Source: Yinghuangia soli
GTDB lineage: Bacteria > Actinomycetota > Actinomycetes > Streptomycetales > Streptomycetaceae
Assembly (NCBI RefSeq): GCF_021502675.1
Contig: NZ_JAKFHA010000046.1
Coordinates: 1 to 64,000 of the forward strand
Reading direction: 5' to 3'
DNA: 64,000 nt
Shown here: positions 46,498-57,818 of the stretch, piece after piece
Layout: each line of letters opens with the position of its first letter
Numbering within the stretch: the first letter of the stretch is position 1
Position numbers and translations under genes: made by a program
Notes under the pieces: model-generated
What the model was told of the DNA's origin: nothing
What the model saw: the letters and a program-made list of their open reading frames with translations, nothing else
Database searches by the model: none

Positions 46498-46564
46498 GAT
46501 TGCTCCGCATCCCTTCGCGTGGCGGCCTTGCGCGAGTGCAAGGTGCGTACCGGAGTGACGGTTC

Positions 46565-46577: not shown

Positions 46578-48881
46578 GTGGGGGACTTCGGTACTGACCT
46601 CGACTTTCACGTGGTCATCGGGGCTGCGACCGACGGCGGTTACCACGTCACGTGGCAGGCGCCAGGGGGTGGCGAGGCGGCGACTGTCATGGCGTTGCCG
46701 CCGACGGCTGTGCTGGACGCGCTCGTCGAGCGGATACCGGACTCTGTTCTGGCGTCGTCCGCCCGTACCCGGCGGGTGATCGTCGGGGACGAGATCCCCG
46801 TGAACCGGCTCGGTCGGCTGCTGTTCGATGCCTTGGTCACCTCTGAGGGCCGGTCGCTCCTGCTCGCGAGTCGGCGACAGGCACACCACGCGCACGGACG
46901 GCTCCGCTTCGTCTTACGGATTCTGCCGCCCGAGCTTGCCCGGCTCCCTTGGGAGTTCATGTACGACTCGGCCGACGAGGAGTACGTCTGCCTCACCACT
47001 CCCCTGATCCGCCACCCCCAGGCCCTGCCCGCTGCACGGCCGCTGCGCGTCGAGGCGCCGCTGCGCATCCTGTGCATGAGCGCGCGGCCCCATGATCAGC
47101 GCAACCTGGCGGTCGACGCCGAAGACGCGCAATTGCGGAGGGCTTTGGCCGACCTCGAGGCGAGCGGCCACGTCGAGGTCGGCTGGGTGCGCGGCCAGAC
47201 CTGGCGGGACCTCCGCGATGCGCTGCACCAAGGCCCCTGGCACGTCTTCCACTTCATCGGGCACGGCAGTTTCGACCGCAGCGCCCAGCAGGGTGCGCTC
47301 GCGCTGGCCGACGAGAACGGCGGCACGCGTTACCTGGGCGCCGACCAATTGGCCACGCTGCTGGCGCAGCACCCCTCCGTGCGGCTCGTCGTCCTCAACG
47401 CCTGCGAGACCGGGCGCGCGGCGGCCCTCAATGCGTCGTCCAGCGTCGCCGGGTCGCTGATGCGCAAGGGGCTGTCCGCGGTGCTCGCCATGCAGTACCC
47501 GATCTCGGACGACGCGGCGGTGGAGTGCAGCCGGACGTTCTACGAGAGCCTGGCCCGCGACCTCCCGGTCGACCTGGCCGTCACCGAGGCGCGCCAGGCC
47601 ATCTGGATGTCGCACCCGGGGTCGCTGGAGTGGGGCACTCCCGTCCTCTATATGCGTTCGCCGGACAGGCACGTGTTCGACGTCGCGGCCACCATCGTCG
47701 CTCCCGCCCGTACCCCCGTCCCGGAGCTGCCGCCCGCGCATGAAGTCGGAGTGATCCACACCGACCCTTGGGACGCTGCGGCCGCCACGTTCCTCGCCGC
47801 CCTGCGCAGGAACGGCGCCCATCTCGTCGCCACTTCCCCCGCCGTCGTCCAGCCCGCAGAGGGGCCAAGCCCTGCGGGGCCGGAACCACTAGGACCTGAG
47901 GACACGAAGGCACCACGGACCCTGCGCGCCGTGCACGCTGCACAGCTCATGCTCGACCTCCCCGTGGACTGCCTCGCCGTCGACAAGGGCGGATATCTCA
48001 TGGCGGCCGCGTCGGGTCCCGGCACGGTCGCGATGTTCAACCTGTTCGAGCTCTTCGCCGGGCGAGACCCCGAGGTCAGCCGTGTACGGCTCGGCAACGC
48101 CAGGAGCACCGGCCTCCATGCCGTGGCGATTTCCCCGGGGGTCAACCTGACCGCCACGACATCGCCCAACGGCAATGTCCGGATCTGGCACTCCCATAGC
48201 GGCGAGGGGGCGCGCTGGCGCTTCCGGCACCGGAGCGCCGTCCTCGACGCGGCGTTCAGCCTCGACGGCAAGCGGATCGCCACGGTGAGCCTCGACCAGG
48301 GGGTCAGCGTGTGGAGCTGGCAAGGCGACCTGGAGTCCCGATTCGACATCGGCCTCCCGGCGGGCCGTGTGGTCTTCAGCCGGGACAGCCGGTGGGTCGC
48401 CGCGACCTCGCTGCAGAACCTCGTCCACGTCTGGGATCTGGAGTCCGGGACCGAGACCGTCCATGCCATGCGGTACCTCGGACCGTCCGGGCTGACCTTC
48501 ACCGCGGACGGACGCGACCTCGTGGTGGGCAACATCGGCGGGATGGCCGAGTTCATCGACGTGGTCACGGGTGAGCAAGGCAGAACCCTCACGCACTTCG
48601 TGACGGACGAGAAGCAGCTCGCCGAACACCCCGTCCCGACCGCCCGCGGCCTGCCCGGTCTGGACGTCGCCGTCGGCGACGACGGACGTGTGCTGGCCAC
48701 GTTCGGGCCGGGCCACGACGTGATGCTCTGGGACCCCTCCTCCGGCGCGGAGCTCGCCCGGATCACCCACGAGTCGGCCGTCCGCGCGGCGGTATTCGGA
48801 CCCCGCGGCAGGTTCCTGGCGACCGGCTGCGACGACGCGACCCTGACCGTCTGGCGGCTTGCCGAGGAGACCGATGACTGA
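46578..48881 (+). CDS. CHAT-domain (caspase-like) peptidase fused to WD40 propeller
   Basis: 767-aa protein. After an N-terminal region (about 1-110, 'DLDFHVVIGAATDGGYHVTWQAPGG'), a CHAT peptidase domain (to about 370) carries the catalytic pair His229 ('HVFHFIGHGSFD') and Cys276 ('VVLNACETGRAAAL'). A Pro-rich linker follows, then a WD40 propeller (about 450-767) with blades ending 'VRIWHSHSG', 'VSVWSWQGD', 'VHVWDLESG', 'VMLWDPSSG' and 'LTVWRLAEE'. CHAT domains are clan CD proteases used in regulated proteolysis and bacterial conflict or cell-death systems. The GTG start is set by alignment to the paralogue and by the -10 box. Its end overlaps the next gene by eight bases. Substrate unknown. 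Confidence 0.92.
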   Translation: MGDFGTDLDFHVVIGAATDGGYHVTWQAPGGGEAATVMALPPTAVLDALVERIPDSVLASSARTRRVIVGDEIPVNRLGRLLFDALVTSEGRSLLLASRRQAHHAHGRLRFVLRILPPELARLPWEFMYDSADEEYVCLTTPLIRHPQALPAARPLRVEAPLRILCMSARPHDQRNLAVDAEDAQLRRALADLEASGHVEVGWVRGQTWRDLRDALHQGPWHVFHFIGHGSFDRSAQQGALALADENGGTRYLGADQLATLLAQHPSVRLVVLNACETGRAAALNASSSVAGSLMRKGLSAVLAMQYPISDDAAVECSRTFYESLARDLPVDLAVTEARQAIWMSHPGSLEWGTPVLYMRSPDRHVFDVAATIVAPARTPVPELPPAHEVGVIHTDPWDAAAATFLAALRRNGAHLVATSPAVVQPAEGPSPAGPEPLGPEDTKAPRTLRAVHAAQLMLDLPVDCLAVDKGGYLMAAASGPGTVAMFNLFELFAGRDPEVSRVRLGNARSTGLHAVAISPGVNLTATTSPNGNVRIWHSHSGEGARWRFRHRSAVLDAAFSLDGKRIATVSLDQGVSVWSWQGDLESRFDIGLPAGRVVFSRDSRWVAATSLQNLVHVWDLESGTETVHAMRYLGPSGLTFTADGRDLVVGNIGGMAEFIDVVTGEQGRTLTHFVTDEKQLAEHPVPTARGLPGLDVAVGDDGRVLATFGPGHDVMLWDPSSGAELARITHESAVRAAVFGPRGRFLATGCDDATLTVWRLAEETDD

Positions 48882-49428
48882 CGCCGTCCCGCCCCCGCAC
48901 GCCGACTTCGTGGTCGACGCCGCGGTCACCGTCGAGCAGGAACTGCCGCTGCTGGAGGCCTTGGACGCCATCGGGTTCACGGTCCGCACACGCGTGCTGC
49001 CGACGCGCCGGGCCGATCCGCTCACCTGGCTGATCCTGATCGCGGTGCCGCTGAGCGGCTTCCTCGGCGGCTTCGGCACCAAGGCGGGCGAGGACTCGTA
49101 CCGCAAGTTCACCGACGGCCTGCGGGCGGTGCTCCGCCGCCACAACCGTCTCACGGAGTCGTCCGACGAAGCGGAGCCGGACGCGGGATCGGCATCGGAA
49201 CCGGCGTCGGAACCGGAGCCCGAGCAGCCGTCCGGCACCGCCCCGCGGCACATCGTCCTCCAAGACCCGGCCTCCGGGCTGCGGATCCTCATCGACCACG
49301 AGCTGACGCCCGAGGCCTACGCGGAACTCCTCAGTCTCGACCTGACCACCTACCAACTTGGCCCGCTCCACTACGACCACGCTCAGAAGCGCTGGCGCTC
49401 CACTGCGGACGAGGCCCTCGCCGGTTGA
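48874..49428 (+). CDS. Hypothetical CHAT-partner protein, putative single membrane segment
   Basis: 184-aa protein that starts eight bases inside the CHAT/WD40 gene, so the two are translationally coupled. Residues about 5-45 look like a small alpha/beta unit ('VVDAAVTVEQELPLLEALDAIGFTVRTRV'); 'LTWLILIAVPLSGFLGGFG' is a plausible membrane helix; an acidic Ser/Pro/Glu linker precedes a C-terminal unit with 'LRILIDHELTPEAYAELLSLD' and 'GPLHYDHAQKRW'. No family recognised. Coupling makes it a candidate substrate, anchor or inhibitor of the CHAT peptidase, but this is inference. Confidence 0.8.
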   Translation: MTDAVPPPHADFVVDAAVTVEQELPLLEALDAIGFTVRTRVLPTRRADPLTWLILIAVPLSGFLGGFGTKAGEDSYRKFTDGLRAVLRRHNRLTESSDEAEPDAGSASEPASEPEPEQPSGTAPRHIVLQDPASGLRILIDHELTPEAYAELLSLDLTTYQLGPLHYDHAQKRWRSTADEALAG

Positions 49429-55193: not shown

Positions 55194-57818
55194 ATGGGGG
55201 AAAACGCGGCCGATCTCGACCTGCACGTGGAGATCGGCGCGGCGAGCGAGCACGGGTACCACGTCGTCTGGAGAGCGCCCGGCGGCAGCGAGGCGGTGAC
55301 CGCCATGGTCCTGCCGCCCGCGCCGGTGCTCGACGCGCTGGCGCTGCGCGTCCCGGACTCGGTGCTGGCGTCGACCGCAGTGGTGCGGCGTACGGTCACC
55401 GGCGACGAGGTCGCGGTCCACGAACTGGGGCGGCTGCTGTTCGACGCGCTGGTCACCGGCGACGGGCACGCGCTTCTGGTGTCGGCCCGGCATCGGGCGG
55501 CTCGGGACGGCAGCCGGCTGCGGGTCGTGCTGCGTGTGCATCCCCCTGAACTTGCGCGACTCCCCTGGGAGTTCCTGTTCGACAGCGGCCAGGACGGCTA
55601 CCTGTGCCTGGACACGCCGCTGATCCGGTACCCGTACGCGCTGCCGCCCACGGTTCCGTTGCAGGCCTCGGGGCCGCTGCGCATCCTGTGCATGGCGGCC
55701 CGCCCCGAGGACCGGGCGCACCTGGCCGCGGAGGCGGAACTCGACCGGCTGCGTACGGCGTTGGCTGATCTGGTCGACGCCGGGCTGGTGGAGTTGGGAC
55801 GCGTCCCAGGGGAGACGTGGCGGGACCTGCGCGATGCGCTGCGGCCGGGCGGAGCGGGCGGGACGGGTGCTGCCGGCGGCCCGTGGCACGTGTTCCACTT
55901 CGTGGGGCACGGCGGCTTCGACAGCAGCTCGCAGGAGGGCACCATCGCCCTTGCCGGCGAACGCGGCGGCACGCAGGCGCTCCGCGCCGAGCAGTTGGCG
56001 ATCCTGCTGGCCGGACACCGTTCGCTGCGGCTGGCGGTGCTGAACGCCTGCGAGACGGGGCGGGCGGCGCCGGTCGACCCGTTCTCCAGCGTCGCGGGCT
56101 CCCTGATGCGCCGCGGGCTGCCCGCGGTGCTCGCCATGCAGTTCCCGATCACGGACGCGTCGGCGGTGGAGTGCAGCCGGACGTTCTACGAGGCCCTGGC
56201 CCGGCAGTTGCCGGTGGACTTGGCGGTGACGGAGGCCCGGCAAGCGATCTGGATGGCGCACCCGGGATCGCTGGAGTGGGGGACGCCGGTCCTGTACATG
56301 CGGTCGTTGGAGGGGCGGCTGTTCGACCTCGGGGCGGCGGCCGCCGACGTCCCGGCCAAGCCGGTCGCGGAGTCCGTCCCGCGTGACGAGGACCGAGCAG
56401 CCGCGGAGGACTGGTACAGCCGCGGAGTCGGCGCGTTCTACACCGATGAATGGGACGCGGCCATCGAGGCGTTCGCCCGCGTGCTCGCCATCGATCCCGG
56501 CCATCCGCGCGCAGCGCAAAGGCTGGCCGATGCGAAGGACGGTCGCGCAGCGGCATCCGCAGCCGCGGCAGCCGAAGCGGCCGTCGCACGGCAGGACTGG
56601 AAAGAGGCTGCGGCGCAGTACGAACGCTTGCTGGCCGCGGCGCCGGACCACCCAGGCGCGCAGGATGGCCTCACCGCAGCCAACCGGGAGATCGAACACG
56701 ACGAGTTCGCGGCCGGGATCGCCCTGCTGCACCGCTACGGCAACTGGAAGGCCGTGGTTGCCACGGCGCAACGGTTCCGCGAAGCGGCGCCCGCCGGCCC
56801 CGGGGACCGGTTCGCCTTCGTCGACGACTTGGCCTCCTCCGCGTCCGCACACCTGGAGGAACAGGCCCGCCGCGAGCTGGGCGGGGCGACGCAGCCCGGG
56901 CCCCCGCTGACGTCGCGGGCGATGACCCGACGGCTGTCTGCCGCCGCCAACGCACTCGCCTTCGCACCCGACGGCAGCTTCCTGGTGGCCGCGTGCGACT
57001 GGAACCTCGTCGTCACCGTCGCCCTGGACGGCGGTCCCGAGGGCGAAGGAGAGCAGCGGGGCCGCCAGTCGGGACCGCTCTGGCACGCCGCCTTCATGCC
57101 TGACGGGCAATCCTTCGCGACCGCCGGCTCCAACGGCACCGTCACCTGGTGGGACCGCAAGCCCAGGAAGCGGCAGCGGCAGTTCAGCCTCCTTGACGTG
57201 CAGGCCCTGGCCATCGACGCGCAGGGGAAGAACCTGGCAGTGGCCAGTGAGCAACAGGCCGCGCACGTCTATTCGCTGGAGAACTCCCAAAGGTACTTCA
57301 ACTTGCCCATGCGGGCCCGCGTCCGCGCCCTGGCGTACCGACCGGGCAGTTCCCAACTCGCCGTGGCGGGCGACGACGGCAGGGTCCGCATCTGGGACAC
57401 CGACACGAAGCTGCTGCTGCACTCCCTGACACACCCTCATGGACTGACCGACGTCTTGTTCAGTCCCGACGGCCGGCACCTGGCGACCGCGTCCGACGAC
57501 TGCACAGCCCGGGTCTGGGATGCCGAGACCGGCGTCCGGCTGTCGAAAATGCGACACGCCAGGCGCGGGGAGAGACACAGCCGGGCAGCACACCATCTCG
57601 CGTACACCCCGGACGGGATCCACCTGGCGACCTTCGGGTGGGACGGAGTTCTCCGCGCCTGGAACGCGGCGACCGGTGAACCGGCGTTCCACTTGGCCTT
57701 CCCCGGCAGCGTCCGGGCAGGAGCGTTCAGCCCGGACGGCACGATGGTCGCCGTCGGCCTCGACAACCGGGATCTGCACATTCGGGACTGGCCGCCCTCC
57801 CCTGCTCCCGGCTCTTGA
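55194..57818 (+). CDS. CHAT-domain peptidase with TPRs and WD40 propeller
   Basis: 874-aa protein. N-terminal region and CHAT domain (to about 380) closely match the protein encoded at 46578; catalytic His239 ('HVFHFVGHGGFD') and Cys286 ('AVLNACETGRAAP') are intact. Then TPR-like helices (about 395-540: 'WYSRGVGAFYTDEWDAAIEAFARVLAIDPGHPRA' type, and 'DWKEAAAQYERLLAAAPDHPGA'), then a WD40 propeller (about 575-874) with blade ends 'VTWWDRKPR', 'VRIWDTDTK', 'ARVWDAETG' and 'LRAWNAATG'. TPR and WD40 parts probably sense or bind a partner and license the protease. No coupled partner gene. Role inferred: regulated proteolysis or conflict effector. Confidence 0.93.
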   Translation: MGENAADLDLHVEIGAASEHGYHVVWRAPGGSEAVTAMVLPPAPVLDALALRVPDSVLASTAVVRRTVTGDEVAVHELGRLLFDALVTGDGHALLVSARHRAARDGSRLRVVLRVHPPELARLPWEFLFDSGQDGYLCLDTPLIRYPYALPPTVPLQASGPLRILCMAARPEDRAHLAAEAELDRLRTALADLVDAGLVELGRVPGETWRDLRDALRPGGAGGTGAAGGPWHVFHFVGHGGFDSSSQEGTIALAGERGGTQALRAEQLAILLAGHRSLRLAVLNACETGRAAPVDPFSSVAGSLMRRGLPAVLAMQFPITDASAVECSRTFYEALARQLPVDLAVTEARQAIWMAHPGSLEWGTPVLYMRSLEGRLFDLGAAAADVPAKPVAESVPRDEDRAAAEDWYSRGVGAFYTDEWDAAIEAFARVLAIDPGHPRAAQRLADAKDGRAAASAAAAAEAAVARQDWKEAAAQYERLLAAAPDHPGAQDGLTAANREIEHDEFAAGIALLHRYGNWKAVVATAQRFREAAPAGPGDRFAFVDDLASSASAHLEEQARRELGGATQPGPPLTSRAMTRRLSAAANALAFAPDGSFLVAACDWNLVVTVALDGGPEGEGEQRGRQSGPLWHAAFMPDGQSFATAGSNGTVTWWDRKPRKRQRQFSLLDVQALAIDAQGKNLAVASEQQAAHVYSLENSQRYFNLPMRARVRALAYRPGSSQLAVAGDDGRVRIWDTDTKLLLHSLTHPHGLTDVLFSPDGRHLATASDDCTARVWDAETGVRLSKMRHARRGERHSRAAHHLAYTPDGIHLATFGWDGVLRAWNAATGEPAFHLAFPGSVRAGAFSPDGTMVAVGLDNRDLHIRDWPPSPAPGS

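Follow-up and report, generated by a model that had tools for sequence, protein, structure and literature searches.

The 64,000-nucleotide stretch of Yinghuangia soli DNA analysed here (contig NZ_JAKFHA010000046.1, hereafter the window) contains a gene for a CHAT-WD40 protease whose 3' end overlaps a gene for a 184 amino acid protein, which raises the question of what the small protein does for the protease. To our knowledge, what restrains bacterial CHAT proteases, or what they target, is known for few of them. The first-pass annotation of the window described the small protein as an orphan and a putative membrane protein, and proposed that it could be the substrate, anchor or inhibitor of the protease, with possible action at the membrane after cleavage.

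The CHAT-WD40 gene occupies positions 46578..48881 of the forward strand and encodes 767 amino acids, from a GTG start that was chosen at 46578 (an in-frame TTG lies upstream at 46500) to the TGA at 48879-48881. The CHAT (caspase-like) domain at 46812..47615 (+) matched Pfam PF12770 with 109.6 bits, above the cut-off of 24, and E values of 1.1e-31 and 2.6e-31, while the WD40 repeat region at 48108..48860 (+) was recognised by Pfam PF00400 (E 1.2e-16) and by beta-propeller models; the E values of 2.6e-31 for CHAT and 1.2e-16 for WD40 were obtained with the protein read from 46572. The putative catalytic residues are His229 in the motif HFIGHG (47262..47264, +) and Cys276 in the motif VVLNACETG (47403..47405, +), which we take to form the catalytic dyad with the role it has in the CHAT family. 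Alignment by eye revealed both residues in 15 of 15 CHAT domains that are paired with a partner protein. The match to PF12770 and the presence of both dyad residues assign the predicted product of the 46578 gene to the CHAT peptidase family. The window contains a second CHAT gene at 55194-57818, which encodes an 874 amino acid protein with CHAT, TPR and WD40 regions and has no adjoining partner gene.

The partner gene begins at the ATG at 48874 and extends to 49428 (48874..49428, +). As first described, it starts eight bases inside the CHAT gene; the overlap ATGACTGA at 48874..48881 (+) is identical in two other genomes, and a ribosome-binding-like site, GAGGAG, is located within the 3' end of the CHAT gene at 48864..48869 (+), 4 bases before the ATG. 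The GC contents of the three codon positions are similar in the CHAT-WD40 and partner genes (0.73/0.51/0.88 and 0.74/0.49/0.90, respectively), and relatives of the partner are under purifying selection, with dN/dS values of 0.27-0.41 in 7 pairs and a dS of approximately 1 in two pairs. The reading frame at 48874-49428 is a real gene. Its product contains a hydrophobic segment at residues 50-68 (49021..49077, +), modelled as a strand and a short helix with no membrane helix, an acidic linker at residues 98-126 (49165..49251, +), and the C-terminal beta-beta-alpha-beta-beta part of the core module (49252..49401, +), which includes a conserved tryptophan at residue 174. The initial description of one hydrophobic stretch, an acidic linker and a further part holds for this protein, but the linker is peculiar to it and is no family feature, having 29 residues in the window partner compared to 4-10 in the other 14 of 15 members.

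Relatives of the partner were identified with one protein as query, which gave matches in 5 of 200 same-family genomes, the window's included, and by profile searches. A profile of 5 members matched in at least 19 of 394 same-family genomes, and a profile of 15 members matched at least 25 places in at least 21 of 394, so that the protein is no orphan. These counts are lower bounds because only 9 first-look candidates per genome, part of those found, were scored. The 15 members are full-length matches with E <1e-41 over nearly the whole length, and the 10 weaker places were left out of this set. An additional place in G315 (E 7e-4), with no CHAT gene beside it, was matched by the 5-member profile and not by the 15-member profile. 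At the level of the phylum at least 2 of 396 genomes matched, both from the same family, and at the level of the class at least 6 of 394, two of them outside the family: G1012 (E 1e-12) and G920 (E 7e-4), where the sequence read, of 7,968 and 13,477 bases respectively, contained no CHAT gene. In G1012 the partner-like gene, of 146 amino acids, lies upstream of a 643 amino acid gene with no Pfam match at E 0.01 (L162 4682-7176). Plasmids, phages and viral contigs, each searched with one partner protein, gave no match, and neither did a scan of genome contigs with the window partner.

The window partner matched no Pfam family above cut-off (best E 0.013) and nothing in NCBIfam or PADLOC up to E 1. 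For the 15 members the best stray matches were SelB-wing_3 in Pfam (E 0.013, 1/15), RSP_7527 in NCBIfam (E 0.0058, 1/15) and ZorA in PADLOC (E 0.036, 2/15), and the family profile gave a best E of 0.11 against the sequences of solved structures. No description of the family was recognised in the open-licence PMC literature among the matches listed. The partner probably belongs to an as yet undescribed family, whose members are small and probably soluble, and accompany CHAT proteases as a constant partner in Streptomyces-type actinobacteria.

The surroundings of all 25 places matching the partner profile were examined, using gene calls from GC contrast that were crude and included antisense frames at L077 and L113. 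All 15 full-length homologues with E <1e-41 were found beside a CHAT gene, either adjoining it (11) or one gene off (4), and the Pfam CHAT domain was shown in 14 of the 15 loci, the CHAT domain of G209 being shown by an HMM built here and not from the G209 protein itself. The co-occurrence on which the first-pass annotation had staked the pairing was thus borne out for every strong homologue, and for 1 of the 10 weaker ones. Eight loci have a WD40-CHAT gene followed by the partner (the window, G183, G319, G311, G318, G371, G132 and G009; the WD40 repeats of G132 were recognised by eye). The window, G183 and G319 share the 8-base overlap, all with the sequence ATGACTGA, while G318 and G132 have a 4-base overlap, which in G132 lies in a frame that follows an apparent frameshift, and G311, G371 and G009 have gaps of 14, 10 and 11 bases. 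Conservation of the exact overlap was therefore confirmed for three of eight pairs, window included, and not for the others. The CHAT-WD40 gene of G132 (L082 7188-9571) appears frameshifted, which is either real or an assembly error.

In the remaining 7 loci the partner accompanies other CHAT proteins, lying 5' in five and tail to tail in two. In G094, G197, G209 and G321 the partner is followed by another gene and then by a long CHAT protein, with a TPR match below cut-off in the CHAT protein of G094 and TPR repeats in the middle gene of G209, the only middle gene scanned. In G264 a TPR-CHAT gene follows the partner after 77 bases, and in G102 and G314 a TPR-CHAT gene is tail to tail with it, so Pfam clearly shows TPR repeats in 3 of the 7 loci (G102, G314 and G264). 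The occurrence of one partner family with WD40-CHAT and with other CHAT proteins indicates that the partner is constant and the CHAT architecture variable. With all 15 strong homologues near a CHAT gene and overlaps that recur, the prediction that the small protein is a dedicated partner of the CHAT protease is well supported. The window's genome (9.7 Mb) contains 4 CHAT matches and one partner match, and no partner adjoins the CHAT genes at 55194-57818 or on contig 16. A mirror-tree comparison of partner and CHAT was weak (Pearson 0.80, Spearman 0.26, reached by 112 of 5000 permutations; with 10 representatives Spearman 0.22, reached by 480 of 5000) and was left out of the support.

The structure of the partner was modelled using AlphaFold2. 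The window partner gave a mean pLDDT of 72.8, and a relative from G318, which has no long linker and was modelled with 22 sequences, gave a mean pLDDT of 84.1 and a pTM of 0.79 as one compact domain. Both models have the order beta-alpha-beta-beta-alpha-alpha-beta-beta-alpha-beta-beta, to which the window partner adds a last short helix, and in the window model the acidic linker joins the long helix to the fourth strand. The hydrophobic segment supplies strand three and the helix after it, and is buried in a soluble alpha/beta domain in both models. A 22-row alignment revealed an invariant phenylalanine and an invariant tryptophan, a nearly invariant glycine and alanine, and no invariant charged or polar residue, which fits a role in binding rather than catalysis. 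When the partner model was compared with known structures by Foldseek the best match had an E of 0.018 and a TM score of 0.33, and weak tautomerase/MIF-like arrangements were found. The N-terminal ~100 residues of the G318 model align with the two beta-alpha-beta units of the tautomerase/MIF fold over 86-88 residues, with an rmsd of 3.4-3.8 and a Z score of 5.7, below 8. In the tautomerase superfamily the proline directly after the start methionine is the catalyst; the partner has no proline at position 2 in 14 of the 14 members shown with their start methionine, the 15th alignment row being without its start. With this difference and the weak fold scores a tautomerase enzyme was rejected.

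Rather than a membrane protein, the partner is probably a dedicated adaptor or regulator of a bacterial protease that acts in defence or death. Judged from sequence, we give an even chance to the reading in which the protein is soluble and serves its own CHAT protease as adaptor or regulator. The CHAT-WD40 protein and its partner would be produced in a constant ratio and would form a complex. By means of the beta-alpha-beta part at its N-terminus and its conserved core, the partner would serve as adaptor and gate, either keeping the protease off or docking it to a signalling complex. The WD40 repeats, or the TPR repeats in other members, would sense a trigger, and on activation the CHAT domain would cut its target, leading to defence or cell death.

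The weaker profile matches count against this adaptor reading, since 9 of the 10 are not beside a CHAT gene, as do the CHAT genes of the window's genome that have no adjoining partner, the weak mirror-tree agreement, and the rarity of the family (at least 21 of 394 genomes). The one weaker match beside CHAT, G094:C1:173648, is oriented divergently to a CHAT gene that has a TPR-S match. Seven places (G327, G240, G385, G008, G358, G319:C27 and G319:C26) are matched mainly in the core and have no CHAT gene within roughly 7 kb on either side; the protein of G385 contains TPR repeats (Pfam) and its gene adjoins a DNA ligase gene, and that of G327 is Sel1-like by eye. Alignment to the partner profile gave 99% for six of the core sequences, although these had been picked out by that same profile. 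In G311:C22 (L077 5239-7757) a distant relative, similar over most of its length and with an extension that has a weak HTH match, overlaps the gene of a CmlA-like diiron hydroxylase by 4 bases, and is coupled to the hydroxylase and not to a CHAT gene. The occurrence of the core without CHAT in TPR, Sel1-like and weak-HTH proteins is as might be expected of an adaptor module that recurs. In G252 (L117 3819-4196) a truncated remnant of the partner was found with no CHAT gene in the 16 kb read, as if the two had been lost together. By eye, genes that adjoin this remnant are also neighbours of the partner in other, related genomes.

A less probable reading, although the strongest alternative to the adaptor, is that the partner is a substrate or pro-effector, cleaved by the CHAT protease to release a fragment that acts. 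Passages of PMC10028731 describe cleavage of the genetically associated Csx30 by Csx29, a TPR-CHAT protein, and this pair resembles the present one by layout, a CHAT protease with repeats next to an associated protein. Proteins encoded beside proteases are likewise described as substrates in passages of PMC12799240 on protease-activated nucleases, caspase loci included. The long flexible acidic linker of the window partner could be cut, but a linker of 4-10 residues in 14 of 15 members indicates that release by linker cleavage is not a shared mechanism. A conserved cleavage site in the linker was accordingly rejected. The compact single domain of the G318 model and the absence of any toxic domain recognised by Pfam, NCBIfam or PADLOC also weigh against a substrate, although a cut could fall at a non-conserved place, as is reported for Craspase and Csx30.

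It is unlikely, and somewhat more so than cleavage of the partner, that the small protein is an antitoxin-like inhibitor, blocking the CHAT active site until it is released or degraded on a trigger. The tight coupling with gene overlap would suit an inhibitor, as would a small partner that diverges faster than the CHAT domain (63% compared to 72% identity between G318 and G009). Against this, some CHAT genes of the window's genome stand without an adjoining partner, and the core occurs with no CHAT gene nearby.

A membrane anchor or pore former, in which the hydrophobic segment would insert into the membrane before or after cleavage, is improbable. Hydropathy alone is compatible with a membrane protein and is borderline, with a KD19 of 1.79 in the window partner and a value of 1.6 reached by 9 of 15 members, and EACC1, which is laid out alike, is described with one TM helix in passages of PMC7159879. 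The two AlphaFold2 models, which know no membrane, instead give a strand and short helix within a soluble fold, the stretch contains proline and polar residues, and an approximate insertion energy was positive in 15 of 15 members (0.8-4.2 on a rough scale made here). The suggestions that the partner is a membrane protein or anchors the protease to the membrane are accordingly disfavoured. That the two genes are chance neighbours with no joint function, as the narrow distribution of a rare family might allow, is highly improbable given that 15 of 15 members lie at or one gene from a CHAT gene in several arrangements with recurring overlaps, compared to an expected adjacency of ~0.1% (0-6 CHAT matches in 7 genomes, with 8,000 genes assumed).

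The partner was compared with two known groups of small proteins encoded beside proteases, as described in passages of Kaur et al. (2020, PMC7159879). EACC1 (Pfam PF19953) is described there as the partner of caspase-superfamily proteases with variable attached domains in actinobacteria, and has a single TM helix flanked by alpha+beta elements. The CHAT partner shares with it a small alpha+beta protein, one hydrophobic segment and a constant association with a protease. The two differ in that the 15 CHAT partners have no match to PF19953 up to E 1, hhalign gave a probability of 0.1-0.2% compared to 98.6-99.8% for positive controls, and the hydrophobic segment, of borderline hydropathy, is modelled as a strand and helix. 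EACC1 is also the 5' gene of its pair in that account, while the window partner is 3' of CHAT-WD40 and the partner is 5' in 5 of 15 loci. Membership of EACC1, suggested by the layout, was rejected by the profile comparison. The Trypco (trypsin-co-occurring) domains are small domains encoded beside a protease in conflict systems according to the same passages, an arrangement like that of the CHAT partner, and membership of Trypco1 and Trypco2 (PF19493, PF19631) was rejected as there was no Pfam match up to E 1 and hhalign gave 0.8% and 0.2%. On an Arthrobacter plasmid (NZ_AP024648.1, L118 4992-7912) a CHAT gene is overlapped by 4 bases by a Trypco1 gene, in the same position 3' of CHAT as the window partner, and this CHAT protein is 41% identical to approximately half of the window CHAT-WD40 protein. 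A trypsin-co-occurring domain paired with a CHAT protease in this way is a precedent for the arrangement in the window. As far as sequence goes, the layout resembles the EACC1-caspase and Trypco-trypsin pairs without homology by profile comparison.

Some relatives have genes of possible defence function nearby. In G183 and G319 the CHAT gene is oriented divergently to a gene that matches DO-GTPase2 (E 1e-5 and 1e-7, above cut-off), while the other 8 of the 10 genomes searched, the window's included, gave no match; in G183 the partner is followed by genes for a McrB-like AAA protein and McrC. At L028 1591-9034 the CHAT-WD40/partner pair lies between a divergent DO-GTPase2-like gene on one side and McrB-like/McrC genes on the other, and this locus is possibly a defence island. 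Beside the partner in some relatives is a gene that we take to resemble a geosmin synthase gene. DO-GTPase-GAP1 is described as a core module of conflict systems in passages of Kaur et al. (2020, PMC7159879).

The family, of 134-184 amino acids and with close relatives that are all at CHAT genes, provides a direct experimental handle on the control of CHAT proteases. A protease with a small constant partner is suggested as a general layout for trypsins, caspases and CHAT proteases, in which the small partner domains are apparently unrelated between protease types. Tentatively, and with less confidence than in the adaptor reading itself, the partner family may be a constant component, so far without a name, that gates CHAT proteases whose sensor repeats differ (WD40, TPR). 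It would then join EACC1, for caspases, and Trypco, for trypsins, as a third class of protease partner, and its scaffold, soluble and tautomerase-like, would be one exchanged between conflict systems.
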